The notes under the pieces were generated by a model, which saw only the letters and a list, made by a program, of their open reading frames with translations, made no database searches and was not told the DNA's origin. A stretch of DNA of 64,000 nt from Geothrix sp. (GTDB lineage: Bacteria > Acidobacteriota > Holophagae > Holophagales > Holophagaceae). The stretch is from positions 2,840,857-2,904,856 of the forward strand of contig NZ_CP126625.1 of the NCBI RefSeq assembly GCF_030219325.1. Direction: 5' to 3'. The position numbers were made by a program, and so were the translations under genes. Below are positions 17,874-51,852 of this stretch, piece after piece (the stretch's first letter is position 1; each line of letters starts with the position of its first letter).

Positions 17874-19118
17874 GTGGAATTGGTCAAGGTCAGGCAGGAA
17901 TGCCCATCGACGGAAGCTCTGCTGAAACGCTTCCCCCCACGAGGAGCCTTCGAAATCGACGAACTGGAAACCAAGTCAGGTCCACTCCCGAGGATCATCG
18001 GGGAATTTTGGGCACCTGGGCAGCGGAATGGTCACAGCCTTCACGAAATCAGCTACCGGGCCTGCTACAAGCCCGAGTTGCCAGCCCTATTCATCGAAGC
18101 CCTGACCCAACCCGGAGATGCCGTCTACGACCCTTTTGGCGGGCGTGGTACGACGGCACTCGAAGCGGCCCTAAGAGGTCGAAGGCCGATCTCGAACGAT
18201 GTCAACCCGCTCTCTGAGATGTTGCTCAGGCCCAGGCTCACTCCACCTGCATTTGATGAAATCGCCCATCGCCTAACGAAGATTCCCCGGCATTCCAGGA
18301 AGATCGTCGATCTGGATCTCTCCATGTTCTTCCATATCCAAACGGAATCCGAGATACGAGCCTTGAGGGTTTGGTTCAAATCACGCCGGGATTCCGGTGC
18401 CTTCGATGCCGTAGATGCCTGGATCCGAATGGTCGCGCTAAACCGACTCACGGGCCATAGCGCCGGGTTCTTCTCCATCTATTCACTTCCGCCAAACCAG
18501 GCCATGCCCGCAAAAAAGCAACTCGCAATCAACCAGCTGAGAGATCAGGTCCCTCCGTATCGCGATACCCATGCCCTCATCAGGAAAAAAACTAAGGCAT
18601 TACTACGTGATTTCACCTCTCCTGAGGCCGTGTCCGCCCTGCATGTAGCAGGTAAGTTGGCTTCACTGCACTGTGGCAGCGCAGAGCACACGCCAGATAT
18701 CCCCTCGGAAAGCGTCGACCTCGTGGTGACGAGCCCGCCCTTTTTGGATGTGGTTCAGTACCACACCGACAACTGGATGAGGAACTGGTTCGCGGCCATC
18801 GATGAATCATCAGTCGAGGCTACCTTCATCTATGAACGCACCGTGGAAGGCTGGTGTCGCCGCATTGAGGAGACTTTCAAGGAAATTCATCGCGTTATGA
18901 AGCCGGGCGCCTGGTTCGTCATGGAAGTGGGAGAGATTAAGAAGGCCACACTCAACATGGAAGATCTATTGCTTCCCATTGGTGAAGCCCATGGCTTCCA
19001 TCTACAGGGGGCCCTCATCCATACCCAAGCCTTCACCAAAACGGCCCATATATGGGGGGTCGGAAACAATGAGAAGGGTACCAACAGCCAGCGAATGGTT
19101 CTGTTTCAGAAGCGGTAG
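17874..19118 (+). CDS. DNA methyltransferase of a type II restriction-modification system
   Basis: A 414-residue amino-methyltransferase. The SAM loop is YDPFGGRGTTALEAAL near residue 87 and the catalytic tetrad is in VVTSPPFLDVVQYHTDNW near residue 285. An SPPF tetrad favours N4-cytosine methylation, though N6-adenine cannot be excluded. The order (SAM motif first, catalytic motif about 200 residues later) leaves a large middle recognition region. The start is a GTG with no good ribosome binding site, so it is uncertain. Codon use is clearly less GC-biased than in flanking genes. A controller gene and a candidate endonuclease follow, and a homologous native-looking 3' fragment lies at 22088-22183. 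Confidence 0.85.
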   Translation: MELVKVRQECPSTEALLKRFPPRGAFEIDELETKSGPLPRIIGEFWAPGQRNGHSLHEISYRACYKPELPALFIEALTQPGDAVYDPFGGRGTTALEAALRGRRPISNDVNPLSEMLLRPRLTPPAFDEIAHRLTKIPRHSRKIVDLDLSMFFHIQTESEIRALRVWFKSRRDSGAFDAVDAWIRMVALNRLTGHSAGFFSIYSLPPNQAMPAKKQLAINQLRDQVPPYRDTHALIRKKTKALLRDFTSPEAVSALHVAGKLASLHCGSAEHTPDIPSESVDLVVTSPPFLDVVQYHTDNWMRNWFAAIDESSVEATFIYERTVEGWCRRIEETFKEIHRVMKPGAWFVMEVGEIKKATLNMEDLLLPIGEAHGFHLQGALIHTQAFTKTAHIWGVGNNEKGTNSQRMVLFQKR

Positions 19119-19131
19119 CATCAACCAATGT

Positions 19132-19171
19132 GACTCATAGTCCATAGACTCCAATGGCCCATGCGCCAGTC
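19132..19171 (+). promoter_or_regulatory. C-box-like operator for the controller protein
   Basis: GACT-CAT-AGTC at 19132-19142 is followed by a further GACT at 19147-19150 and AGTC at 19168-19171. Pairs of GACT/AGTC half-sites are the known binding pattern of PvuII-type restriction controller (C) proteins. They lie directly upstream of and within the first codons of a C-protein-like gene, as expected for autoregulation. Confidence 0.6.
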
Positions 19172-19178
19172 TTGTGAC

Positions 19179-19439
19179 ATGAGGCTCATCAATCGACTTG
19201 CGCAAAACATTCGTGAACTACGACTGGCAAATGGCTGGTCTCAGGACGATTTGGCCGAGGCCTCGGGACTCGATCGTACATACATCAGCGGGATCGAACG
19301 CGGGAGGAGAAATCCCACGATTTTGGTCGTAGAACGGATTGCCAACGGGCTCCATGTCGACCCATCGATGCTCTTATCCACAGAATGTCAATCGGCAGAA
19401 AACCAGAAGACACTTCCCACCAATAGAAAGGCGGATTGA
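19179..19439 (+). CDS. Restriction-modification controller (C) protein, XRE family
   Basis: An 86-residue single-domain helix-turn-helix protein: NIRELRLANGWSQDDLAEASGLDR, then YISGIERGRRNPTILVVERIANGL. This is the length and sequence style of restriction controllers such as C.PvuII, which time endonuclease expression after the methylase. GACT/AGTC half-sites just upstream support this. The ATG at 19179 was preferred because it gives the usual short N-terminal arm; an ATG at 19161 is in frame but lies inside the operator. The proposed endonuclease gene begins 64 bp after its stop. Confidence 0.8.
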   Translation: MRLINRLAQNIRELRLANGWSQDDLAEASGLDRTYISGIERGRRNPTILVVERIANGLHVDPSMLLSTECQSAENQKTLPTNRKAD

Positions 19440-19503
19440 ACCTGTCTGCAATTTCCCGACGGTTGTAAGGGCTCTTCAAACCTACGCGGTCTATCGCAAC
19501 TAT

Positions 19504-20367
19504 ATGAAAGACAAAGATATGGTTAATCCGAAAAGAAATCGCTCCGAGGGTTGGTCCCATGCGAAGAACTCGGGCCACGCAAATGAAACAGCCATCGAAT
19601 ATTCTCTAAAAGAAGAGCCACTTAACCAGTTGGGCTATCGTCTTGGCAAGAAGGGAATGTCCGGCGAAGCCAAGGTGGGTGGAAAGGGAGAGAAATCGGT
19701 CCCTTGCATTTTGGGTGGTAAGACCAAATCAAAAACCGATCTGAAAATCATCTGGAACGATGGATCCATCAGCAATATATCCATAAAGAAGAGTTTGGGT
19801 GGACAGGCTTTTCTTATCGGGACAGAGCGGTTCATCGACGGCTTCGAGCGTCATTTCACGACCATACCCAAGGGAGTTAAAAAGGCTTTACGGCTCTACA
19901 TCGGCGGACCCGAGGTGAAGCCGGTCCTGAAGGAGATCCCTGCAACGGGCACTGATTTGCGTGAGTATGAACTCCGAAAAGGGCGAATGGTCTGGGATAC
20001 CTTGCGCACCTATGATTGCGGACTCGCGGCAGAGCTGCTGTCTTGGAGCCGGTTGAATGTAGGTAGCATCACGAGATTCTGTTTCTCGAGAGGTTTGGCC
20101 CGAGACGAATCCGACTGGGCTAGCCACATCTGGTACAAGAACTTAATCGGAGAAAACAACACAGACGAACTATTCAATATTGATGATCTCGTAGCAACTG
20201 CGGGCATGGCCATTGATCGAGTTGCTCCAGGCCCAAAGAATGGTGGGTCAACGATCCTGTTTCCGTTTGGCTTCTTGCAATGGCATCAGAAGAAGATGCA
20301 ATTTCATCATGGTTTTGAATCCATTTCGGAATGCCTGATTCTTGGCACCAAGCCGAAATCAAAATAG
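19504..20367 (+). CDS. Candidate type II restriction endonuclease
   Basis: A 287-residue protein with no domain I can name with certainty. Its place after a methyltransferase and a C protein is the normal position of the endonuclease. The stretch KTDLKIIW followed 7 residues later by ISIKKSLGGQAF fits a PD-(D/E)xK-like core (Asp, then Ser/Ile-Lys), which is the basis of the call together with context. Codon use is AT-richer than in the chromosome. The frame is open to 19339, overlapping the C gene, and 19519 is another possible start; ribosome binding sites are weak. Confidence 0.6.
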   Translation: MKDKDMVNPKRNRSEGWSHAKNSGHANETAIEYSLKEEPLNQLGYRLGKKGMSGEAKVGGKGEKSVPCILGGKTKSKTDLKIIWNDGSISNISIKKSLGGQAFLIGTERFIDGFERHFTTIPKGVKKALRLYIGGPEVKPVLKEIPATGTDLREYELRKGRMVWDTLRTYDCGLAAELLSWSRLNVGSITRFCFSRGLARDESDWASHIWYKNLIGENNTDELFNIDDLVATAGMAIDRVAPGPKNGGSTILFPFGFLQWHQKKMQFHHGFESISECLILGTKPKSK

Positions 20368-20485
20368 GCAACTACTGTAGCGGATTAAAGTGTTCATTGA
20401 ATTTCGGCCCTCAGGACCAAGGAACCCAACTGTTGAGTTTCACCCTGATCCTCTCATCGATTGTTTGATGTGACTTATTCGCTAC

Positions 20486-20902
20486 CTAACACTTGGAAAG
20501 AAGGAAAGTTGATAATCTAATGGCAAGACCCTCAGCATCTGTAGTTTGGCATTCCCAGACGACCTTCACGCTCCAACCTAGTCTTCGAAGTTGGCGTTGT
20601 GCTCGTCGATCACGAATCAAATTCGAGTCAAATTTCTTGTTCCAGAATGCGATGTTAACCGCTGGCATAGTGGATTTGCGGCATCCATTCCCATGTCGAT
20701 GCCAAAAACAACCATGGACGAAAATGACCTTCTTCAATCGTGGGAATACAAGGTCAGGTGATCCTGGTAGTTCCTTCATGTGCAATCGGAATCTGTACCC
20801 AAGGCGATGACAAAGACTTCTCACGATCAATTCGGGGGCGGTATCCTTCCCTTTGATTCTTTTCATCCTCTCGCTAACCTGCTTCGGAGTCTGAGTAGGC
20901 AT
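20486..20902 (-). CDS. vsr: Very short patch repair endonuclease
   Basis: A 138-residue protein with the Vsr signature throughout: VSERMKRIKGKDTAPELIVRSLCHRLGYRFRLH at the N terminus (residues 9-41), the catalytic core GSPDLVFPRLKKVIFVHGCFWHRH and the structural-zinc cysteines (C-x8-C type, GCRK). Vsr nicks beside T:G mismatches that arise from deamination of 5-methylcytosine. It starts 9 bp after the stop of the dcm-like gene, the usual partner, and is convergent with the candidate endonuclease. Confidence 0.93.
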   Translation of the reverse strand: MPTQTPKQVSERMKRIKGKDTAPELIVRSLCHRLGYRFRLHMKELPGSPDLVFPRLKKVIFVHGCFWHRHGNGCRKSTMPAVNIAFWNKKFDSNLIRDRRAQRQLRRLGWSVKVVWECQTTDAEGLAIRLSTFLLSKC

Positions 20903-20911
20903 TGGACCTCA

Positions 20912-22009
20912 TCACCCCGCCATTTGGTCCTTCTTCTCAAGGCAATCAAGGATCTGCCTCCCGAGTGCCATGGCAAGAAGCGGGGGAACTGCGTTGCCAA
21001 TCTGGAGATTCTTTTTCTGACGAGTTCCCGTGAATTGGTAGGCGTCGGGGAACCCCTGTAGACGTGCTCCCTCCCGAGTGGTCAATCCACGATTTTGAAA
21101 GGGATGAATACAACGACTACTACTCGGCGTTCCAAAATTCCGGGTCATGGTCGGTGCACATCGATCCCACCAGAGGCGCGCGTAGGTATTGTTAAAATAG
21201 GATTTTGGCCGTAGCTCCAATGGAATGTCGAGAATGGATCCACCGGGGGGAACCAGTCCTATCACTTTTGTGAGTCTTGCTCCATGAGTGGGAGATTCAT
21301 GTTCGGTTAACTCCGCCACACCCTTTCTCATCAGATGTTGGAATTCATTCTTCGGGGCGAAATGGTACGAATTGCAGGCTTCGCCAGATTTGATATCTGG
21401 TAGATCAGAAAGGGCATCTTCCAGAGTCAATCGCGGTAAAAGGCCGAAAAGAGAGGCACCATCTGCATGAGTTGCCTCTGGGAATTCAAACTTCATTGGC
21501 GGCTTGAATCCGACGACAAATGTTCTCTGCCTTGATTGAGGAACTCCGAAATCGACCGCATTGAGAATGCCATGTTTGGTCGTGAAGCCTAAGCGCTCCA
21601 GGTCATCGATCAGGGCCTGATAGGCTCTCCCCTCATACATTCGCTTGAATCCACTAACATTCTCGAAAAGTACCACGCTGGGACGAACCACCTCGACGAC
21701 CTTGAGGAAACTCCAGAACAGTCGATTTCTTGGATCGCTCTCTTGCTTCTTTCCGACCGTCGAGAAGCCCTGACAGGGTGGACCGCCGGCAACCAAGTCG
21801 ATCTTCCCGGCGTAGGAGAATAGCTTTTGTTGAATTTCAGATGACATGATGTCGCCACAAATGACATCGGCATGGGGATGATTGATCTGGTAGGACTCTG
21901 CAAAGGTTGGCTCGTACTCGTTTGCTACGACGACATCCCAACCCGCCCATTGCAGACCTAGGCCCAGTCCACCCGCCCCAGCAAATAGATCCATGGCCCT
22001 GAACTTCAT
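20912..22009 (-). CDS. dcm: DNA (cytosine-5-)methyltransferase
   Basis: A 365-residue C5 methylase with motif I (DLFAGAGGLGLGL), motif IV with the catalytic Cys (GGPPCQGFSTVG), motif VI (LFENVSGF), motif VIII (QSRQRTFVVG), a short recognition region around 230-300, and motifs IX-X (REGARLQGFPDAYQFTG, QIGNAVPPLLAMALG). GGAG precedes the ATG. It forms an operon with vsr and runs convergently to the PvuII-like system. No second endonuclease is visible, so it may be an orphan methylase or part of the same island acting on a different site. Composition is foreign relative to the flanks. Confidence 0.93.
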   Translation of the reverse strand: MKFRAMDLFAGAGGLGLGLQWAGWDVVVANEYEPTFAESYQINHPHADVICGDIMSSEIQQKLFSYAGKIDLVAGGPPCQGFSTVGKKQESDPRNRLFWSFLKVVEVVRPSVVLFENVSGFKRMYEGRAYQALIDDLERLGFTTKHGILNAVDFGVPQSRQRTFVVGFKPPMKFEFPEATHADGASLFGLLPRLTLEDALSDLPDIKSGEACNSYHFAPKNEFQHLMRKGVAELTEHESPTHGARLTKVIGLVPPGGSILDIPLELRPKSYFNNTYARLWWDRCAPTMTRNFGTPSSSRCIHPFQNRGLTTREGARLQGFPDAYQFTGTRQKKNLQIGNAVPPLLAMALGRQILDCLEKKDQMAG

Positions 22010-38988: not shown

Positions 38989-41463
38989 GTGACAAAGCTC
39001 GTGATCGTCGAAAGCCCCTCCAAGGCGAAGACCATCACCAAGTACCTCGGCAAGGGGTACAAGGTCATGGCTTCCGTGGGGCACATCCGGGACCTGCCGA
39101 AGAAGCTGGGCGTGGACATCGAGAACGGGTTCCAGGAGGAATACGAGATCAGCCCGGCCAAGGAGAAGGTGGTCAAGGAGCTGAAGGCCGCCGCCAAGAC
39201 CGCCACCGAGCTGGTGCTCGCCACCGACCCCGACCGCGAGGGGGAGGCCATCAGCTGGCACCTGCTGGAGGCCATCAAGCCGCCCAAGACCCTGCCCGTG
39301 AGCCGCGTCCTCTTCAACGAGATCACCCCGGCGGGCATCCAGAAGGCCATGGCCGCCCCCACCACCATTAATAAGAAGCTGGTGGACGCCCAGCGGGCCC
39401 GCCGCGTGCTGGACCGCCTGGTGGGCTACAAGGTGAGCCAGGTGCTCTGGGACAAGGTGCGCCGGGGCCTCAGCGCCGGGCGCGTGCAGAGCGTGGCCGT
39501 GCGCATCATCGTGGACCGCGAGAAGGAGATCCTGGCCTTCAACCCCGTCGAGTACTGGGTGCTGAAGGGCCGCTTCGCCGCCAAGCTGCCGCCCTCCTTC
39601 TGGATGCGCCTGGTGAAGCTGGGGGGCCAGCCGCTACAGCTCGGCAACAAGGAGACCAAGCGCCGCGTGGGCGATGCCGCCCAGGCCAAGGACCTGAAGA
39701 CCAAGCTCGAAAAGGCCGACTACAAGGTCACGGGCCTGGAGACCAAGGAGAAGAAGCGCAACCCCGCCGCCCCCTTCACCACCGCCAAGCTGCAGCAGGA
39801 ATCGGCCCAGAAGCTCAAGATGAGCGTGAGCCGCACCATGCAGAACGCCCAGCGGCTCTACGAGGGCGTGGACTTCGGCGAAGGCCCCGTGGGCCTCATC
39901 ACCTACATGCGCACCGACTCGCCCCGCATGGCCCCCGAGGCCGTGGAGGCCACCCGCGAGTTCATCGCGTCGAAGTACGGCAAGGAGTTCCTGCCCGCCA
40001 AGGCCCGCGTGTACACAGGCAAGGCCGGGGCGCAGGACGCGCACGAGGCCATCCGCCCCACGGACATCACCCGCACGCCGGAATCCCTGCGCGGGCACCT
40101 GGAGCCCGACCAGTTCCGCCTCTACGCGCTGATCTGGCGGCGGACGATGGCCTCGCAGATGGAGGCCGCGCGCTTCGACGAGACCGTGGTGCAGACCGAG
40201 GCCGAAGTGGGCAAGGACACGGCCACCTTCGAGGCCAAGGGCGAGATCGAGCGCTTCGCGGGCTGGCTGGCGGTGTACCGCGCCGACAAGACCGAGGTGG
40301 AAGCCGAGGCCATCGCCGATGCCACCAAGGGCGCCGACGAGGAGGACGAGGACGACGCGCAGCTGCCGGCCCTGAAGCTGGGCGAGGCGCTGAAGCTCGA
40401 GCAGCTCGACGCGGACCAGCAGTTCACCAAGCCCCCCGCCCGCTTCAACGAGGCCACGCTGGTGAAGGAGCTGGAGGAGGACGGCATCGGCCGGCCCTCC
40501 ACCTACGCCAGCATCATCAGCACCATCCAGGACCGCGACTACGTCAAGAAGCACGAGGGCCGCTTCAAGCCCACGGATCTCGGCATGACGGTCACCGAGC
40601 TGCTGCTGCAGGGCTTCCACGACCTCATGGATCCCAAGTACACCTCGGGCATGGAGGGCAACCTCGACCGCATCGAGGAGGGCAAGCTCACCTTCAAGAA
40701 GGCCATGACGGACTTCTACGGGCCCTTCGAGCAGAGCCTGGCCGCCGCCGGCAAGGACATGCAGAACCTCAAGGCCGGCGTGCCCACGGGGGAGAAGTGC
40801 CCCAAGTGCGGCGACCGGAAGAAGAACCCCGGCACGCTGCTCAAGCGCATCGGCCGCAACGGGCTCTTCGTGGGCTGCACCAACTACAGCGCCGAGCTGG
40901 AAAAGGACAAGTGCGACTACACGGCGGACCTCGAAAAGATGGAGGAGCCCGAGGACGCGCCGGAGTGCCCGCTCTGCGGCACCACGCCCATGAACCTGCG
41001 CAAGGGCCAGTGGGGCCCCTTCTGGGCCTGCCCCAACTACCCCAAGTGCAAGGGCATCGTGAAGGCCGATCCCAAGGGCATCCCCGTGCCGCCGGACGAG
41101 CCCACGGGCGAGAAGTGCCCCAACTGCGGCAAGGGCTTCGTGAAGCGGCACGGCCGCTACGGCGAGTTCGTCTGCTGCGTGGACTACCCCACCTGCAAGA
41201 CCGTGAAGAAGGAGATCCTGGCCGTGCCCTGCCCCAAGTGCGGCGGCGGCCTCAGCCCCCGCAAGACCCGCTTCGGCAAGGTCTTCTACGGCTGCACCAA
41301 CTACCCCAAGTGCGACTTCACCGCCTGGGACAAGCCCGTCCCCGTCACCTGCCCCGCCTGCAAGAACCCCATCATGGGCGAAAAGACCAAGAAGCCCCGG
41401 GGGAAGGATCCCATCCAGGTGCTCGTGTGCCCCAACTGCAAGCATGAAGAGCCGATGGGGTGA
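38989..41463 (+). CDS. topA: Type I DNA topoisomerase
   Basis: An 824-residue type IA topoisomerase. Toprim is at the N terminus (VIVESPSKAKTITKYLG, TDPDREGEAI) and the catalytic Tyr306 is in GLITYMRTDSPRM. DAHEAIRPTD and ELEEDGIGRPSTYA follow, and the C-terminal tail carries five CxxC zinc ribbons (from CPKCGDRKKNP to CPACKNP...CPNC). It relaxes negative supercoils. The start is a GTG with GGGAGA upstream. The protein is longer than many homologues because of the zinc tail and an acidic insert (GADEEDEDD). The gene is followed directly by an AT-rich foreign gene. Confidence 0.97.
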   Translation: MTKLVIVESPSKAKTITKYLGKGYKVMASVGHIRDLPKKLGVDIENGFQEEYEISPAKEKVVKELKAAAKTATELVLATDPDREGEAISWHLLEAIKPPKTLPVSRVLFNEITPAGIQKAMAAPTTINKKLVDAQRARRVLDRLVGYKVSQVLWDKVRRGLSAGRVQSVAVRIIVDREKEILAFNPVEYWVLKGRFAAKLPPSFWMRLVKLGGQPLQLGNKETKRRVGDAAQAKDLKTKLEKADYKVTGLETKEKKRNPAAPFTTAKLQQESAQKLKMSVSRTMQNAQRLYEGVDFGEGPVGLITYMRTDSPRMAPEAVEATREFIASKYGKEFLPAKARVYTGKAGAQDAHEAIRPTDITRTPESLRGHLEPDQFRLYALIWRRTMASQMEAARFDETVVQTEAEVGKDTATFEAKGEIERFAGWLAVYRADKTEVEAEAIADATKGADEEDEDDAQLPALKLGEALKLEQLDADQQFTKPPARFNEATLVKELEEDGIGRPSTYASIISTIQDRDYVKKHEGRFKPTDLGMTVTELLLQGFHDLMDPKYTSGMEGNLDRIEEGKLTFKKAMTDFYGPFEQSLAAAGKDMQNLKAGVPTGEKCPKCGDRKKNPGTLLKRIGRNGLFVGCTNYSAELEKDKCDYTADLEKMEEPEDAPECPLCGTTPMNLRKGQWGPFWACPNYPKCKGIVKADPKGIPVPPDEPTGEKCPNCGKGFVKRHGRYGEFVCCVDYPTCKTVKKEILAVPCPKCGGGLSPRKTRFGKVFYGCTNYPKCDFTAWDKPVPVTCPACKNPIMGEKTKKPRGKDPIQVLVCPNCKHEEPMG

Positions 41464-41470
41464 GCCACCT

Positions 41471-42661
41471 ATGGTGATGAGACGAGAAAAACCGCCTAAA
41501 TATGTCCTCATCCCAGATACAGGCTTGCTTTGGCACGATGATAAATGTTTAATTGTTAACCCAGAGTTCGATACTTTTTTATTACAACATTCTAAAAAAT
41601 ACGAACTTGAAGTTAACGTGCCCGAAATAGTCATGGAAGAATTGGCATTTCAACAATCAACTTCTGCTATTAAATCATTCGAGCAAATGTTGCCACTTCT
41701 TGAAAAAATAAATCAAATTATTGATAAAAATATTAATATTAAAATTACAAATACTGAAATAAAAAAATTCGCCAGAGATAGGGCGTATAAATGGGCACAC
41801 GATCATAAAATTAAAATTCTACCTATCAACATCGAAAAAGTTGATTGGAATAGAATTATTCATCAAGCGACTTGGAGATTACCACCATTTACATTTGACC
41901 CAAAAAATCCTGAAAAAGAAAAGGGATTTCGGGACACATTAATTTTAGAAACAGCCATTCAAAAATCCAAAGAAGCGGCCGAAGATTGCAATGTAGTGTT
42001 CATATCCAAAGACAATCTTCTTAGAGAAACAGCAGAGAAGATATTCGGTGGCAACTCCAATATGTTGGTATTTAATAATCTCGAATCTTTTTCTTCCTAT
42101 TTAAAATTGTTTGAAGAGAAATTAACAAAAAAATTTATCCAAAACATACAACACAGAGCAAGAAGGAAATTCTATTCCGATGACGATGATAACAATTTAT
42201 GGGAAAAATATGATATTTCAAGCCAAATAGCCAATAAAGTTAAAGAGATTTTCAAAGAGCCCCCTGATCCTGAAAAATCCAGAGGAATTGTCGCCCTAGC
42301 GAATTTATCTAATAAATTTAGGCCATTTGGAGAGAGTAAAATATTTTTTAATAGTCCAACATTCAACAAATTAGAATCTTCAAATATTTTTCATTGGAAT
42401 TCTCTTGTTACTTATTCACAGCCTTTTCAATTGGCCTTAAATTTTATAACGAGGAAACCAGATTCAAGTTCCAAAAAATTAAAAATTATTCAATTCAACA
42501 TACAATGGCATGCCACGGTAAAAGCAGATGGTAGGTTCATGTCCATAGTTCTTGATGAAATTTCGATACTGGATAGTTTTTTTGATTTTCCAACTAATGA
42601 GCAATTAAATAATTACTATGGCCCATGGCCTGACCGCCATCAACCAAATTCTGAATCTTAA
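41471..42661 (+). CDS. AT-rich PIN-domain protein (DUF4935-like)
   Basis: A 396-residue protein with a PIN-type ribonuclease core in the N-terminal half: Asp16 in LIPDTGLLW, Glu56/57 in VMEELAF, Asp155 in KGFRDTLILETA and Asp181 in VFISKDNLL, matching the four acidic metal ligands. The C-terminal 190 residues are unassigned. The gene is strikingly AT-rich with A/T-ending codons, against GC-rich neighbours on both sides, so recent transfer is likely. It starts 7 bp after the topA stop. No antitoxin gene accompanies it. A role in RNA cleavage, toxin or phage defence is plausible but not shown. Confidence 0.75.
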   Translation: MVMRREKPPKYVLIPDTGLLWHDDKCLIVNPEFDTFLLQHSKKYELEVNVPEIVMEELAFQQSTSAIKSFEQMLPLLEKINQIIDKNINIKITNTEIKKFARDRAYKWAHDHKIKILPINIEKVDWNRIIHQATWRLPPFTFDPKNPEKEKGFRDTLILETAIQKSKEAAEDCNVVFISKDNLLRETAEKIFGGNSNMLVFNNLESFSSYLKLFEEKLTKKFIQNIQHRARRKFYSDDDDNNLWEKYDISSQIANKVKEIFKEPPDPEKSRGIVALANLSNKFRPFGESKIFFNSPTFNKLESSNIFHWNSLVTYSQPFQLALNFITRKPDSSSKKLKIIQFNIQWHATVKADGRFMSIVLDEISILDSFFDFPTNEQLNNYYGPWPDRHQPNSES

Positions 42662-42729
42662 AATTATTATTCCATCTTTATCGATAATCCTCATTAAATC
42701 CTAGGGGTTAATTGGAGATCTTCCTTAAT

Positions 42730-42783
42730 CGGTGATGCATGGTGATGGGCACTGCCCTGCTTTCCATCGCTGTCCATCACCGG
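42730..42783. repeat. Word-repeat hairpin (GGTGATG type)
   Basis: Left-arm words CGGTGATG and TGGTGATGG are answered by CCATCGC, TCCATCACCGG on the right. The element sits between the PIN gene and the DinB gene. Confidence 0.65.
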
Positions 42784-42809
42784 TTTCCATAGTCTTGCGA
42801 TAATCCCCC

Positions 42810-43343
42810 ATGCTCCAGGACACCCCCTCCTTTCTCGCCTACTGGCGCAACGCCCGGTCCCGCACGGTGCGGGTGCTGGAGGCGCTGGCGCCTGAGGACC
42901 TGGAGTGGGCGCCCACGCCCGGGGCCTTCAGCTTCGGCGACCTGTTCCGCCACCTGGCGGGGCTTGAACGGTTCATGTACGCGGAGAACGTGCAGGGCCG
43001 CCCCAGCTGCTACCCGGGCCACGGGGTCGACCTCGCGCCGGGCCTGGACGGCGTGCGCGCCTACCTGGACCGCTGCCACGCCGAGTCCCTAGCCATCTTC
43101 GGCCAGCTCAGTGACGCCGACCTGCTGGCCCCCTGCGTGAACCTGGCAGGCGCACAGATGGCCACCTGGAAGTGGCTCCGCGCCATGGCCGAGCACGAAG
43201 CCCACCACCGCGGCCAGCTCTACCTCATGGCCAGCCTCCGTGGCCGCAGCGTGGCCCCCCTCTTCGACCTCACCGAAGAACAGCTCGCCGCCGCATCCGA
43301 ACCCGCTGAAAAGAAAAAGCGGAACACCGATGAACACCGATAA
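42810..43343 (+). CDS. DinB-family protein, copy 1
   Basis: A 177-residue four-helix DinB/YfiT-type protein. The metal-site histidines are in LFRHLAGLERFM and AEHEAHHRGQLYLM. Such proteins are metal-dependent thiol S-transferases or of unknown function. The C-terminal residues after position about 165 (EKKKRNTDEHR) are encoded by the left arm of the following repeat, so the original stop was probably elsewhere. It is only distantly similar to the DinB protein at 46025-46552. Confidence 0.85.
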   Translation: MLQDTPSFLAYWRNARSRTVRVLEALAPEDLEWAPTPGAFSFGDLFRHLAGLERFMYAENVQGRPSCYPGHGVDLAPGLDGVRAYLDRCHAESLAIFGQLSDADLLAPCVNLAGAQMATWKWLRAMAEHEAHHRGQLYLMASLRGRSVAPLFDLTEEQLAAASEPAEKKKRNTDEHR

Positions 43344-43442
43344 AAGCTGATAAACACCGATAAAGACAAAGCAGGGCTTCAGGTGGTTCTGCTTTATCGG
43401 TGTTCATCATTCAGTTCTCGGTGTTCATCGGTGGTTTTCTTT
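43319..43442. repeat. Word-repeat hairpin (AACACCGATGAA type)
   Basis: The left arm repeats AACACCGATRAA words and ends in AAAGCAG. The right arm repeats TTTATCGGTGTTCATC words, starting CTGCTTT. The left arm overlaps the last codons of the DinB gene. Confidence 0.8.
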
Positions 43443-43443
43443 G

Positions 43444-43520
43444 GCCGGTGATGCACGGTGATAAACGGTGATAACTGCGCTTGCTCTTTTCATCTCCGTC
43501 CATCTCCGTTCATCTCCGGC
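43444..43520. repeat. Word-repeat hairpin (CGGTGATG / CATCTCCG type)
   Basis: GCCGGTGATG and two further CGGTGATA words on the left face three CATCTCCGT/CATCTCCGGC words on the right. The arms complement each other only partly because all words in one arm carry the same base change. Confidence 0.7.
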
Positions 43521-43535
43521 AAATTCCCTTTTCTT

Positions 43536-43719
43536 TTGAATGCCTCTTGGTGCGGCACTGGCCCATGGCTTCGGTATTGGCAGCCTTTCCTGCAAAGGAA
43601 TTCAATAAGCGGAGGTCAGCGGAGGGGCGGAGGAAAGCGGAGAAAGACTTGGTTGACCTGCTTTTCCTCCGCTCTCCTCAGCTTCTCCGCGCTCCTCCGC
43701 TTTCAAAATTCCTTTTCCT
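43536..43719. repeat. Two-copy intergenic element, copy 1 (GCGGAGG hairpin)
   Basis: A conserved head (TGAATGCCTCTTGG, GCGGCAC, GGCCCATGGCTTCG) is followed by a hairpin 43597-43712 whose arms are strings of AGCGGAGG and CCTCCGCT words, closed by GGAATT and AATTCC. The same head, hairpin and tail (TTTCAAAATTCC) recur at 45114-45292. Confidence 0.85.
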
Positions 43720-43749
43720 TGGGTTCCCACCGCCTCCCGGGCGAACCCG

Positions 43750-44256
43750 TCAGGGCTGCCCGGGTGGCTCGCCGGGGACCTGGAGCACGCTCTTCTTGAA
43801 GGTGCCGACGATCTCACCGGCCAGGGCCGGATAGACCTCGTCCGCCAGACGGCCCCTGGGACCGACGCCTTCCACCTGCACCGCCTCCACGCTTTCCCCG
43901 GAGGGATCCAGGATGGCGAACTCCACCACGAAGGTGCCGGTGCCCTTTTCCGCCCGGAGCACCGTGACGTTCAGCCGGAACGGGCTGTCGGGGCGGATGA
44001 CCTTCCCCAGCGACTGCTCCAGGGCCACGGCGAAGACCCAGACCCGGTCGCTGGTCTTCCAGCCGATGCGGCCGTCCCAGGAGACGCCGAGCTCGCGCTG
44101 GAACACCGCGGGGAACCAGGTGAACTGCGGCCTGGAATCCTGGACGGCGGACGTCCGGCCGGTGGGGGGCTTGATGGCATCGAACGAGGCATGGGCCGAC
44201 CGGGCCGGTCCTCCGAGCGCGAAAAGGGCCACCAGAGTACAGAGCGTCCTGGTCAT
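43750..44256 (-). CDS. Exported protein of unknown function
   Basis: A 168-residue protein with a signal peptide (LCTLVALFALGGPARSAHA). No family was recognised. It has one short region with PQFTWFPAVFQRELGVSW and a beta-rich remainder (LNVTVLRAEKGTGTFVVEFAILD) ending in a proline tail. GGGAGG eight bases before the ATG at 44256 sets the start; ATGs at 44262 and 44277 are in frame. Both flanks are word-repeat hairpins. Confidence 0.65.
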   Translation of the reverse strand: MTRTLCTLVALFALGGPARSAHASFDAIKPPTGRTSAVQDSRPQFTWFPAVFQRELGVSWDGRIGWKTSDRVWVFAVALEQSLGKVIRPDSPFRLNVTVLRAEKGTGTFVVEFAILDPSGESVEAVQVEGVGPRGRLADEVYPALAGEIVGTFKKSVLQVPGEPPGQP

Positions 44257-47692: not shown

Positions 47693-47739
47693 GAGTGGTC
47701 ATCATTGTTTTTTCATGCCTTTGCATGCAAGGGGTTCTC

Positions 47740-50700
47740 ATGGCGGAAAACCGTCAGCCCTCCTGGATTGGCTGGATCATGGCCGCCCTCCTGGGCACGG
47801 CGGTGATTGCTCCACAGGTGGGCGGAGAGAAGTCGCCCCCTGCTCCTCCGGCTGCGTCAGGCCAGAAGGCGGCCAACCAGGGATTGGGGACGCAGGATCG
47901 GTACGGTGCGTCGGACCTGGAGAACACAACCCTGCGACCTCTGGTGCGCTTTCTGGAAAAGCTGGGCGAGCCGTCCACCCACGCCGTCCAGGAAGCCACC
48001 ATCCGAGGCGAAGCCAATAAACCCGTCTGGGAACTCAAGGGTGCGCCCTTCACCAACCTTGAGGAGATGCGGAAGTCCTGGAGTGCGGCGCACGAGCTTG
48101 AGCGCAAGGTCGGGAAGGCTCAGAAAGACGGAACGGAGAAGAAGCGCGGCCCGCACCAAGGGGCCGATGGGGATGGCACCCAGGATCTGATGGCAAGCCC
48201 GCACCTGCGCCTGCTATTGGCCAGCCTGCCTGATCCCGAGTACCCCGACCTGCTCCCCATCCACGATCTGTACCTCCGGGCCATGAAGGAGCAGATCCAC
48301 CGCATGGGGTGGCTCTTCGCCGGCCACTGGTACCCCGAGATGGACACCCCGGGCAAGGCGCCGGAGGCCTTCCGGCACATGCCGCGGAGCATCCTCTTTT
48401 CCAGGCCGCTCCAAACCCCAGTGAGCTGGGCCGGTCCGGAACCGGTCGGGCCCAAAAAAGCTGTCGGCGAATCGAACCCGGCCCGGGAGAACCACGAATT
48501 GCTGCTGGTGCTGCTTGTCCCAGAAAACCCCACCCGAGGCATCGACCGTCTTCGGCTGCGGCGTGCACTCAAGCTGGTGAATGACTGGCAGCATTCGGTG
48601 CACGCAAAGGACTCAGCTGCCGTACGGCAGCGCTACGAAAACGCGCAGGATAAGGCGAATCAGGATGGGAGGGCCTTTCAGAGTTGGCTGGATGGGTGGC
48701 TGGATGGGTTGAAAGCGAAACATGAGATTCAAGAAGAGACCTCGAATTCACTGTCAAAACTGGTTAGACCCTTGATTCGATTGCCGAAGCCTGGCGAATC
48801 TTGGGACGAGATCGAAAAAGAGACCTCGAATTCACCATCAAAAAGGGTCAGGCCCTTGATTCGATTGCCGAAGCCTGGCGAATCTTGGGACGAGTGGCTG
48901 GCGCAGCTCCAATCCTTCCCCGAAACGGTTAAGACGAAGAGCACACCCAAGTCCGTGGTCAGCCAATTTGAACGAGAGGCTCGCAGCTTCGTCGACCGCC
49001 TCTGGTCCCGTGTGACCGAAGCCTCACACTACAGCAGGCATCTGCGGTTCCTCGGGCCCCACTACTCGAGCAGCGCCCAGGCCTTGGCAGAAGAGCTTTC
49101 TCCCAAGGCAGGATTCGATACGGCCCTGGGCGCTCTGGTCATCAGTCCTGGCAGCAGCATCCCATCCGTCCGCGGGAAGGCGTTCTGGCCCGCGCGCGTT
49201 GAGGCCGTGTTTCTCCCGCCTGACGACGATTCTCTCCTCATGACCACCGTCTCCACCCAGTTCAGGGAGGACCTGACCGGCTCTGGAGACAGGTGGGCCG
49301 AAATCGATGAAACGGATACCGCCTTCGGAGGCGTGAGCGGGTCCTGGAGTTCATCACATCCTTCCGATCAGGGACTGACCTACAAACTTCCCTCGAATCT
49401 CACCTCCCTCCGGCGGGCCAAGGGCGGCAGCGATGCAGATCCCCTGGCGGGTCTCGGGGGGCCCCTGCGCTCGGCCCTGGCGCGGCTGCGGCCCCTTTCC
49501 ATCGACTGGACGGCGGAAGGTGCGAGTCCCGAGCTTGCCCCGCTGGATCCCCATCCAGCCGTGACCCTGGATCTGGAATTCCAGGCTCTGGTCCAGGACC
49601 TGAAGGTCCGTGGGATAAAGGGGGTCTTCATCAGCATGAGCAGCCTCCAGAACGCCCTGTTCATCGCCCGGCAGCTGCGGATGCACCTGCCCGACCTGAT
49701 CATTGCGATGGACTGGCTCCACGCGGAGCTGTTGCACCCCGACCTGGCGGGGGATCTGGAAGGGATCTATGTCTTCTCGCTCCACAGTCCCTACCCGGAC
49801 TTGTGGCGATTGAGCGCAGACAGCCAAGACCAGACGCATGTGAAACCGATCAGTCCGCCGGAAGAAAAACCGACCCCGCTGGCCCAGGCCTCCGCACCCT
49901 TGGTCCAGGATGCCCTGTGGCTACTGGAAAATGCAGCCCAGAACCCCAAAGGCGGGTGGCAGATCGCCCAGGTTCCAGATACCCCGTCGAAGGCCCCTTG
50001 GTCCAAGCGGCCTGACGGCGATTGGACCTTGCGTCGCCCGCGCTATGTGTCCCAGCTTCGGCATGGCCAGTTCCGTCCGGTCAAAGCCGCATTGGAGCAG
50101 GAGAATGGTCAAGGAAATGCTGAGGATGTCGTTCACTTTAAGGATGCAGGATTCCCTTGGCCGAATCATATTCCCCGTTCAGCTGATTTCTTATCGGTGG
50201 ATGTGTCCTATCTCCGCATGGGGCGCATCCAGAGATTCTGCCTTCCCCTGCTGGCCATCGGCCTGCTGCTGTTTGCCTTCCGGCGCAATCGGAAGCAGCA
50301 GGCCAACCTGGAAATGGGCGCCTCGATTGGGGTGCAGACCTGCCAAGCGCCGGCCCAGCTCGTGTTGATGATCCTGCTGGGCACCGTGCTCCTCTGCACC
50401 CAGGTGACCTGCCTGCATGCGTGCCTGGGCGTGCTCTGGCTGCTGGGAGGCAGGGGGTTGTTCCCCTGGGTCGAGATGTTGCTGTTCCTCGGCTCGTGCG
50501 GGGGCATCTTGTGGATTGCGGCAGGGACCGCAGGACGCCGGGTTCTGACCCTTCTCGAAGCCACCCGAACGCCCTTCATCGCACGCCTCAGGGATGGGCA
50601 AGGGCAGGTGTTCCTGTCGCCTGGATGGATCCAGCTGGCCACTGGCTGCCTGATGGCTGCTCCCGCCCTCTTCATCCTGGGGCAGAGGGGCTGGGAGGAT

Positions 50701-51852
50701 TTCCATCCTGACTCATCCGGCGATCGTTTCGCGCCGGCCTTCCACGCCCTTGCGGCCCTGGAGCCCTTCACGGGATTGGCCTACCTGAGCACCCTGCTCA
50801 TCATCTGCGTGTTCATGGCCCTGGCCATCCACCTCGAAGGCCTGCGTGCATTTCACCAGCAACGGAACCTGAATCTCGTGACGCCGGAGAAAGTGTCGGG
50901 CACTCCGCTGCAAACCCCGACCGAACAACGAACGAAAGCCACTCGCGGATGGAGCCTGGCGGCCTGCCTCCTGCTACCCATGCTGCTGTACCTCCCACTG
51001 TTATTCGAGGGCGGGTTCCGGGCGGTGCGGTTGATCCCCCTGCAAGGAGTGATGAGCTGGATCATCGGCCTCGGCTTCATCGGGCTGGCCGGCTACGCCG
51101 TGTGGCAGTACTGGATGGCCTGGCAGGAGTGGCGGGGGCTCAAGATCCGGTCCATCGCCCTGGAAGTGGCGCCCTGGCGGGATGCCTATGAGGAGGTCGG
51201 CAGACTGTACCCGTGGCGACCCGCCCGCAGCCTCAGTTTCTTCGGCAAGGACAACCGCAGCCTTCCCTTCAAGGTGCTCGAGGAAATCCTGGCGAAGAGC
51301 GCAGATCCGCCCCTCGATCTGGGCCTGCCCGAGCTGCACGGAATCCGGGCGAGCATCCAGAAACTGGCGGATGCCCGGACCAACCAAGCCGAGGAGGCTC
51401 GGATCGTGCGGGACCTGGACCTGGAGCTGAGCGGCATCTTCAAGCGGATGGATGCGAAGGCATCGTACCGGAACCGCCAGGCGCTCGCATTGCACACCTA
51501 CCTCTTTTTCCGGCGGCGCCTGTGGGACGTCAAGTACCGCATCTACCTGTCCCTCTTGGCCTCGTTCTGCCTTCTCTTCGCCGGGTCCGAGGGGTTGCAG
51601 GCGAGCCAGTCCCTGATGCTCCTGGCCCTCACGGGCATCGGCCTTCAGCTGCTGCTGGCCCTGCGCCTGATCCTGGATCTGGAGGGCAACGGCCTCTTCA
51701 GCGCCGTGGCAGGCACGGCCCCTGGCAAGGCCAACTGGAACCAGGACACCTGGTCGGCCCTGATGAAGCCCGCAGCCCTCGCCTTGCTCGCCCTGCTGGT
51801 CGCCCGGTTCCCCGGACTCAGCGCCGCCGCCGCGGGCATGCTTCTGCACTAG
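47740..51852 (+). CDS. Giant orphan membrane protein, possible type I periplasmic-binding-fold receptor
   Basis: A 1370-residue protein I cannot assign to a named family. One N-terminal membrane helix (about 9-24) leads into some 800 extracytoplasmic residues. This part has three stretches reminiscent of type I periplasmic ligand-binding folds: ELLLVLLVPENPTRG (about 252), HLRFLGPHYSSSAQALAEEL (about 430) and KGVFISMSSLQNALFIARQL...IIAMDWLHAELL...EGIYVFSLH (about 625-680). From about 830 there are roughly ten membrane helices, with a soluble segment of about 130 residues (about 1130-1260) between the last groups. AAGGGG precedes the ATG at 47740. The role is unknown; a receptor or channel-like sensor is a guess from topology. 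Confidence 0.7.
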   Translation: MAENRQPSWIGWIMAALLGTAVIAPQVGGEKSPPAPPAASGQKAANQGLGTQDRYGASDLENTTLRPLVRFLEKLGEPSTHAVQEATIRGEANKPVWELKGAPFTNLEEMRKSWSAAHELERKVGKAQKDGTEKKRGPHQGADGDGTQDLMASPHLRLLLASLPDPEYPDLLPIHDLYLRAMKEQIHRMGWLFAGHWYPEMDTPGKAPEAFRHMPRSILFSRPLQTPVSWAGPEPVGPKKAVGESNPARENHELLLVLLVPENPTRGIDRLRLRRALKLVNDWQHSVHAKDSAAVRQRYENAQDKANQDGRAFQSWLDGWLDGLKAKHEIQEETSNSLSKLVRPLIRLPKPGESWDEIEKETSNSPSKRVRPLIRLPKPGESWDEWLAQLQSFPETVKTKSTPKSVVSQFEREARSFVDRLWSRVTEASHYSRHLRFLGPHYSSSAQALAEELSPKAGFDTALGALVISPGSSIPSVRGKAFWPARVEAVFLPPDDDSLLMTTVSTQFREDLTGSGDRWAEIDETDTAFGGVSGSWSSSHPSDQGLTYKLPSNLTSLRRAKGGSDADPLAGLGGPLRSALARLRPLSIDWTAEGASPELAPLDPHPAVTLDLEFQALVQDLKVRGIKGVFISMSSLQNALFIARQLRMHLPDLIIAMDWLHAELLHPDLAGDLEGIYVFSLHSPYPDLWRLSADSQDQTHVKPISPPEEKPTPLAQASAPLVQDALWLLENAAQNPKGGWQIAQVPDTPSKAPWSKRPDGDWTLRRPRYVSQLRHGQFRPVKAALEQENGQGNAEDVVHFKDAGFPWPNHIPRSADFLSVDVSYLRMGRIQRFCLPLLAIGLLLFAFRRNRKQQANLEMGASIGVQTCQAPAQLVLMILLGTVLLCTQVTCLHACLGVLWLLGGRGLFPWVEMLLFLGSCGGILWIAAGTAGRRVLTLLEATRTPFIARLRDGQGQVFLSPGWIQLATGCLMAAPALFILGQRGWEDFHPDSSGDRFAPAFHALAALEPFTGLAYLSTLLIICVFMALAIHLEGLRAFHQQRNLNLVTPEKVSGTPLQTPTEQRTKATRGWSLAACLLLPMLLYLPLLFEGGFRAVRLIPLQGVMSWIIGLGFIGLAGYAVWQYWMAWQEWRGLKIRSIALEVAPWRDAYEEVGRLYPWRPARSLSFFGKDNRSLPFKVLEEILAKSADPPLDLGLPELHGIRASIQKLADARTNQAEEARIVRDLDLELSGIFKRMDAKASYRNRQALALHTYLFFRRRLWDVKYRIYLSLLASFCLLFAGSEGLQASQSLMLLALTGIGLQLLLALRLILDLEGNGLFSAVAGTAPGKANWNQDTWSALMKPAALALLALLVARFPGLSAAAAGMLLH
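48735..48894 (+). repeat. 84-bp in-frame tandem duplication inside the orphan gene
   Basis: AGAGACCTCGAATTCA begins at 48735 and again at 48819, and both copies continue through CTTGGGACGAG with few differences. It duplicates 28 residues containing VRPLIRLPKPGESWDE. Confidence 0.9.

Follow-up and report, generated by a model that had tools for sequence, protein, structure and literature searches.

The 64,000-nucleotide stretch of Geothrix sp. DNA considered here (contig NZ_CP126625.1; called the window below) carries on its forward strand, at positions 47740–51852, a gene for a membrane protein of 1370 residues. We read this protein as a candidate ligand-operated membrane receptor contained in a single chain, a reading with a probability of roughly 0.48 in which ligand binding and signal output are the inferred parts. 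The frame opens with an ATG at 47740, which is preceded by a ribosome-binding-like stretch (AAGGGG, spacer of 5 bases) and aligns with the start of the nearest relative, L011; an in-frame GTG at 47695 is a less likely start. Guanine-plus-cytosine (GC) content in 47740–51852 is 0.654, 0.469 and 0.778 at codon positions 1, 2 and 3, respectively, which is a coding pattern. The gene described in an earlier note on this DNA is thus confirmed by the open reading frame (ORF), by topology from hydropathy and by codon-position GC. Its parts are the following.

47740–51852, plus strand: whole gene, 1370 codons plus stop, encoding 1370 amino acids
47761–47817, plus strand: N-terminal membrane anchor, residues 8–26, from family-averaged hydropathy
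47818–50226, plus strand: outer (periplasmic) region, residues 27–829, from hydropathy and loop charge
48205–50103, plus strand: predicted type I periplasmic-binding-protein fold, residues ~156–788 with insertions, from structural alignments (model residues 39–671; the model starts at residue 118)
48586–49008, plus strand: insertion in the outer domain, residues ~283–423, from an alignment of eight proteins
48724–48891, plus strand: in-frame tandem duplication within the insertion, 2 x 84 bases, 89% identical, from sequence comparison
49651–49653, plus strand: Asn638, from an alignment of 44 rows
50227–51105, plus strand: seven membrane helices, residues 830–1122, from hydropathy
51106–51540, plus strand: basic cytosolic segment rich in lysine and arginine, residues 1123–1267 (145 residues), from hydropathy and charge
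51541–51804, plus strand: the three C-terminal membrane helices, including the cytosolic loop of the family, from hydropathy and alignments

Helix positions were derived from hydropathy averaged over the family, which predicts helices at residues 8–26, 830–848, 876–894, 909–927, 964–982, 1012–1030, 1073–1091, 1104–1122, 1268–1286, 1294–1312 and 1337–1355; an extra weak peak at 1248–1266, with a score of its own of 0.02, is treated as an amphipathic cytosolic helix. The resulting layout is one N-terminal anchor, an outer region of 803 residues, seven helices, a cytosolic segment and three more helices, and in 32 of the 34 members counted, lysine plus arginine make up a larger fraction of the loops assigned to the inside than of those assigned to the outside. 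The outline given in the earlier note therefore holds throughout: the anchor and the ten helices that follow it are found by hydropathy, the huge extracytoplasmic region by hydropathy and charge, and the cytosolic segment, put at about 130 residues, comes to about 145.

The same note had regarded the protein as an orphan, and this did not stand, as homologues are present in Acidobacteriota and a sister type exists beyond them, though without any matching Pfam or NCBIfam model. As a single query, the window protein matches one of 60 relatives (itself) and 9 of 396 acidobacterial genomes, itself included; one of these nine (L017) is false, being by eye a formylglycine-enzyme-like protein. A profile of eight members reaches 25 of the 396 genomes, the source genome included, one of them (G060) with the sister type only. 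The source genome also holds a second, shorter copy of 1059 amino acids (L049:8353-11532; C1:1111867-1115028). An initial DNA-pattern scan of genome contigs, in which 34 patterns matched, gave no relative; a DNA pattern made from the conserved stretch PDPxHxxLxLxFDR occurs at 28 places in the genome collection, 26 of which encode members, several of them truncated at the ends of the retrieved stretch. The named hosts of these members are acidobacterial, except for one metagenome-assembled genome called Rhodanobacteraceae (L079, CAJCHN010000129.1), which is probably misnamed because it falls in the window's phylum set, where the same contigs and matches recur. Two further candidates (L071 and L096) were dropped as false, and weak matches to the membrane part only (G163, G184, G060 contig 34, G192, G221) were not accepted; among their ORFs only that of G163 matched again, at an expect value (E) of 0.09.

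The outer domain of the sister type (L068, L147) is homologous to that of the family (hhalign probability 98.1%, E 1.4e-13, 324 columns), and the membrane domains align weakly (E 0.0035, probability 9%). The five sister-type genes likewise encode a helix at the N-terminus, an extended outer region and multiple helices towards the C-terminus. In the phylum of Pseudodesulfovibrio, the sister type matches 3 of 218 genomes (two long genes and one contig-end fragment), and the main profile matches 2 of 198, the same two with the long genes. The fusion of a binding domain to a polytopic membrane domain in one chain, for which the earlier note had only the window protein to go by, recurs in the family. 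Several family genes (L059/L082, L061, L063, L070, L094) are broken by stops or frame changes at differing sites, owing to natural decay or assembly error.

Structure prediction supports a type I periplasmic-binding fold for the outer region. An AlphaFold model of window residues 118–828, built on an alignment of 23 sequences, has a mean predicted local distance difference test score (pLDDT) of 51 and a predicted template modelling score (pTM) of 0.52, and all 50 rows listed by Foldseek for it contain a type I binding fold, with a best E of 1.5e-4 and with ionotropic glutamate receptors, AmiC and solute-binding proteins among the match types. VIA-align places the same model on LivK (3td9) with a Z of 12.9 and a root-mean-square deviation (rmsd) of 3.6 A over 292 residues, covering both lobes. 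For a relative, L090, the whole chain of 1197 residues was modelled (pLDDT 66.3, pTM 0.66); its top Foldseek match is 4mlc, a solute-binding protein (E 6.6e-4), and its VIA-align comparison with LivK 3td9 gives a Z of 21.9 and an rmsd of 3.5 A over 296 residues. The two-lobed, Rossmann-like arrangement of LivJ-like topology is present in these predicted models only, of which that of the window protein is of low confidence. The type I fold suspected earlier is thereby supported by prediction and by two structural comparisons, and an outer domain unrelated to binding folds is not what Foldseek returned.

Since many ionotropic glutamate receptors stand among the structural matches, one might think of a ligand-gated channel like GluR0 or those receptors, though gated by a type I fold. 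However, the matches that come with ranges fall on the N-terminal type I domain of the receptors and therefore indicate the shared clam-shell fold only, and no pore domain is matched in Pfam by the window protein or by 18 members; a channel is very unlikely.

Five residues (D176, G267, E524, R558 and F641) do not vary in any of the 44 aligned rows, and position 638 is Asp in 42 rows and Asn in two, the window protein and L011. This Asp aligns close to the acidic residue in the HPEMG stretch of LivJ, which in LivJ is taken to contact the amino group of the ligand. For most of the family an amino-acid-like ligand would be expected. The window protein is a divergent member and probably has a changed ligand, since Asn takes the place of the acid presumed to contact it. 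Its identity to L011 is 29% in the alignment and 31% and 37% over two tblastn pieces; a quick tree, for which the program warns of long branches meeting where the window clade joins, pairs it with this gene of another genus in the same taxonomic family on a branch of 1.93. Both proteins carry the insertion at residues ~283–423, where the remaining six of the eight aligned proteins have a gap. Many members carry two signatures in the membrane domain, GVSP..P ahead of one helix and, in the final cytosolic loop, RDxxLSR..T.PG; the window protein has degenerate forms of both.

The long branch of 1.93, Asn638, the tandem duplication (2 x 84 bases) and the degenerate GVSP and RDxxLSR stretches might instead be the marks of a paralogue in decay, with an outer domain that has lost all binding; such decay would be compatible with the other readings of the family. 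Yet the frame is open across 1370 codons with a clear third-position GC, and L011, in another genus, retains the insertion at the same site and the same Asn, so that decay of this copy appears distinctly improbable.

The receptor that we favor would work as follows. An N-terminally anchored clam shell of type I, the branched-chain amino acid binding sort, would capture a small solute in the periplasm; its closure would be relayed to the ten-helix membrane domain (seven helices, the basic cytosolic segment and three more), which would alter its cytosolic face and thereby signal to a partner. What was computed here is the reading frame, the topology from hydropathy and charge, the predicted outer fold and the recurrence of the architecture in relatives; capture of the ligand and a signal as the output would be added to these.

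Several results weigh against this receptor. In the window model, 415 of 711 residues lie under a pLDDT of 50, and its Foldseek matches have query-normalised template modelling scores of 0.14–0.18 with rmsd values of 8.5–19.5. Profile comparison with binding proteins is weak: the probability is 0.8% in one comparison, 1.5% (E 0.035) against LivJ/LivK plus acidobacterial binding proteins, and still 10.6% (E 0.0029) after addition of the sister type; the membrane domain as a control gives E 0.74. The GPxFSGS and T.YG stretches are, however, in register with LivJ stretches in both of these profile alignments, and LDxLFLA in the first. Neither an output domain nor an obligate partner gene was found, and Asn638 together with the degenerate inner loop may reflect an ancestral function that was lost.

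The ten helices also fit a transporter with a built-in solute-binding domain, in which the clam shell would hand its ligand to the membrane domain for movement by an ion gradient or for export. The best structural matches of the outer domain are ABC (ATP-binding cassette) solute-binding proteins, and other transporters with a fused binding domain are known; this is the main rival. It is nevertheless doubtful, as no permease family appears in 18 members (Pfam, E up to 1) and the chain holds no ATPase, and a long basic cytosolic segment together with an N-terminal anchor is unusual for a permease.

Searches against known families returned nothing of weight for any identity. The window protein has no match in Pfam, NCBIfam or the anti-phage defence models of PADLOC at E up to 10, and the best PDB sequences are two photosystem II chains at chance level (E 0.72 and 0.88); at E up to 10, a profile of 23 outer domains finds nothing among the PDB sequences. 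For 18 members, Pfam at E up to 1 gives 12 single-member matches, the best at E 0.015 and none recurring, without any ABC, kinase, channel or permease domain, and PHROGs gives a single chance match. At the same thresholds, neither the window protein nor these members match the Peripla_BP/ANF_receptor models or the membrane or outer domains of 7TMR-DISM and 7TMR-HD, and six PF13458 matches in the source genome belong to other loci. No BPD_transp_2-type permease or ATPase lies in the chain, and none of the three scanned neighbours of the gene in the window is an ABC gene. The view that no ABC, kinase or known channel domain is present thus proved right in Pfam, and a confident match to a known family was found in none of Pfam, NCBIfam, PADLOC and the PDB sequences.

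Identities as an ABC/Liv permease, a kinase, a channel or a defence protein were rejected for want of a family match. A plasmid origin was set aside, with no tblastn match among plasmids, as was a viral one: none was confirmed in viral contigs by pattern scans, which have limited reach and did not extend to the phage record collection. In structural comparison, the viral structure library gave no match below E 0.07. Among the papers listed by searches of an open-access library, none describes such a family in its title or abstract opening, which does not prove that no description exists.

Twenty-seven neighbourhoods were gene-called by a simple script, and all co-directional neighbours within 300 bases (30 genes, spread over 20 loci) were run through Pfam. 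A lytic-type enzyme is among them at 9 of 27 loci in six lineages, a raw count that serves as a lead only because it has no background rate: a patatin in L012 and L016, an N-acetylmuramidase in L015, a Peptidase_C39_2/C70 protein in L055, a phosphoesterase in L011 with a weak C92 match after it, and, in the four loci of a single lineage (L018, L049, L050 and L053), a papain-like Peptidase_C1 match that falls narrowly short of the cut-off. Outside this count, a phage-type lysozyme followed by a SLATT/DUF4231 protein lies just upstream of the family gene in L075:616-1616, and the domain that partners the L016 patatin, DUF3376, lies upstream in L083. The other neighbours include response regulators, protein kinases, GreA, DinB-like, GH2 and radical SAM proteins, a sigma-54 activator and matchless proteins. 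The window gene itself follows an oxidoreductase NAD-binding protein and precedes an alpha/beta hydrolase and an NAD-binding protein. None of these is shared with relatives.

These enzymes, including those of L075 and L083 and the hydrolase behind the window gene, might suggest an envelope-conflict or envelope-remodelling module in which the protein senses the products of, or controls, the adjacent lytic enzyme. However, 18 of the 27 loci lack such an enzyme, seven of them lacking any co-directional neighbour within 300 bases, the enzymes belong to different families amid neighbours of other kinds, and the count lacks a background rate, so we hold this reading to be unlikely. The signal, transport, current and envelope-module readings are not fully exclusive of one another.

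Other arrangements were seen in passing. The second copy, L049, sits in a genus-wide cluster with a sigma-54 activator, a papain-like gene and a divergent GH108 muramidase. Genes for a contractile-injection-type tail sheath and tail tube (gp19) divergently adjoin the family gene in two related genomes, at L062:4807-7557 and L065:12981-15731 (by Pfam, the sheath in L062 and the tube in L065). A membrane protein of 351–353 amino acids without a Pfam match adjoins it in L067:12978-14033 and L085:6901-7962 (34% identity), upstream in one and downstream in the other. In the window, GC dips to 0.50–0.58 at 18001–22000 and 40001–44000, the other 2-kb blocks being at about 0.62–0.73.

For the membrane domain no family or fold could be assigned and no relative was identified. 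With full-length L090, Foldseek lists seven class C G-protein-coupled receptor (GPCR) entries at ranks 3–9 (E 1.8e-3 to 9e-3); in four of the seven, alignments of more than 900 columns run into the membrane part with rmsd values of about 24–34 and no superposition there. The VIA-align rows mainly cover residues 151–611 of L090 and leave out the membrane part, and therefore no new membrane fold is claimed. A family profile (A5) matches, over a seven-helix stretch, two sequences of the beta-3 adrenergic receptor (E 5e-5 and 1.6e-4; scores of about 25 and 23 bits), with composition bias of 9 and 12 bits, and the remaining GPCRs in its list are at E 0.02 or worse; a membrane-only profile (A7) ranks two designed proteins (E 0.016 and 0.097) ahead of GABA-B and metabotropic glutamate (mGlu) receptor 7 (E 1.5 to 3.5). 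We tentatively take these sequence matches to reflect composition rather than kinship.

The class C model for the seven-helix domain, 7tm_3 (PF00003), at E up to 10 matches the family locus in none of 20 family-bearing genomes; sub-threshold matches occur elsewhere in 10 of the 20 (best E 0.017). Kinship with class C GPCRs is not demonstrated, because no family locus is matched; the likeness is one of outline, a clam shell and then seven helices, and membership is not claimed. It is improbable, in our estimate, that these are bacterial class-C-receptor-like proteins, in which a clam-shell sensor, a seven-helix transducing bundle, a cytosolic segment and three added helices would form an ancient or convergent counterpart of mGlu and GABA-B receptors in Acidobacteriota and the phylum of Pseudodesulfovibrio.

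The family exhibits similarities to several known systems, but there are also clear differences. LivJ/LivK-type ABC solute-binding proteins are alike in the predicted two-lobed fold (Z to LivK 3td9 of 12.9 for the window protein and 21.9 for L090) and in the order of short motifs, whereas the family has no Peripla_BP match in Pfam, ten fused helices, insertions and no ABC partner in sight. GluR0, the bacterial glutamate receptor channel, is likewise a binding domain fused to membrane helices, of a type II fold split around the pore; the family differs in having no pore domain match in Pfam. The 7TMR-DISM and 7TMR-HD families are bacterial and join an outer sensor to seven helices, as far as an excerpt of their description goes (PMC1592074). 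The present family differs from them in its outer domain, in matching none of their domains in Pfam and in having no intracellular enzyme. A conflict system with helices and a downstream periplasmic-binding domain, as outlined in part of one report, has a different arrangement (PMC7159879).

Class C GPCRs (mGlu, GABA-B, calcium-sensing and sweet taste receptors) resemble the family in joining, within one chain, a clam-shell outer domain (predicted here for the family) to seven helices and then a cytosolic segment; the family differs in three extra helices, the N-terminal anchor, the absence of PF00003 at the family locus and membrane parts that do not superpose. Bacteria are not known to have heterotrimeric G proteins. 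According to a 2014 study, GPCRs are observed only in eukaryotes, and the GABA receptor is proposed there to have arisen when bacteriorhodopsin and a periplasmic binding protein were joined (PMC8687355). Class C GPCRs are characterised by a clam-shell sensor that forms part of a polytopic membrane protein, and a bacterial family of such outline, described here for the first time for a gene set without a Pfam family, would be, whatever its output, a natural testing ground for how such fusions transduce.

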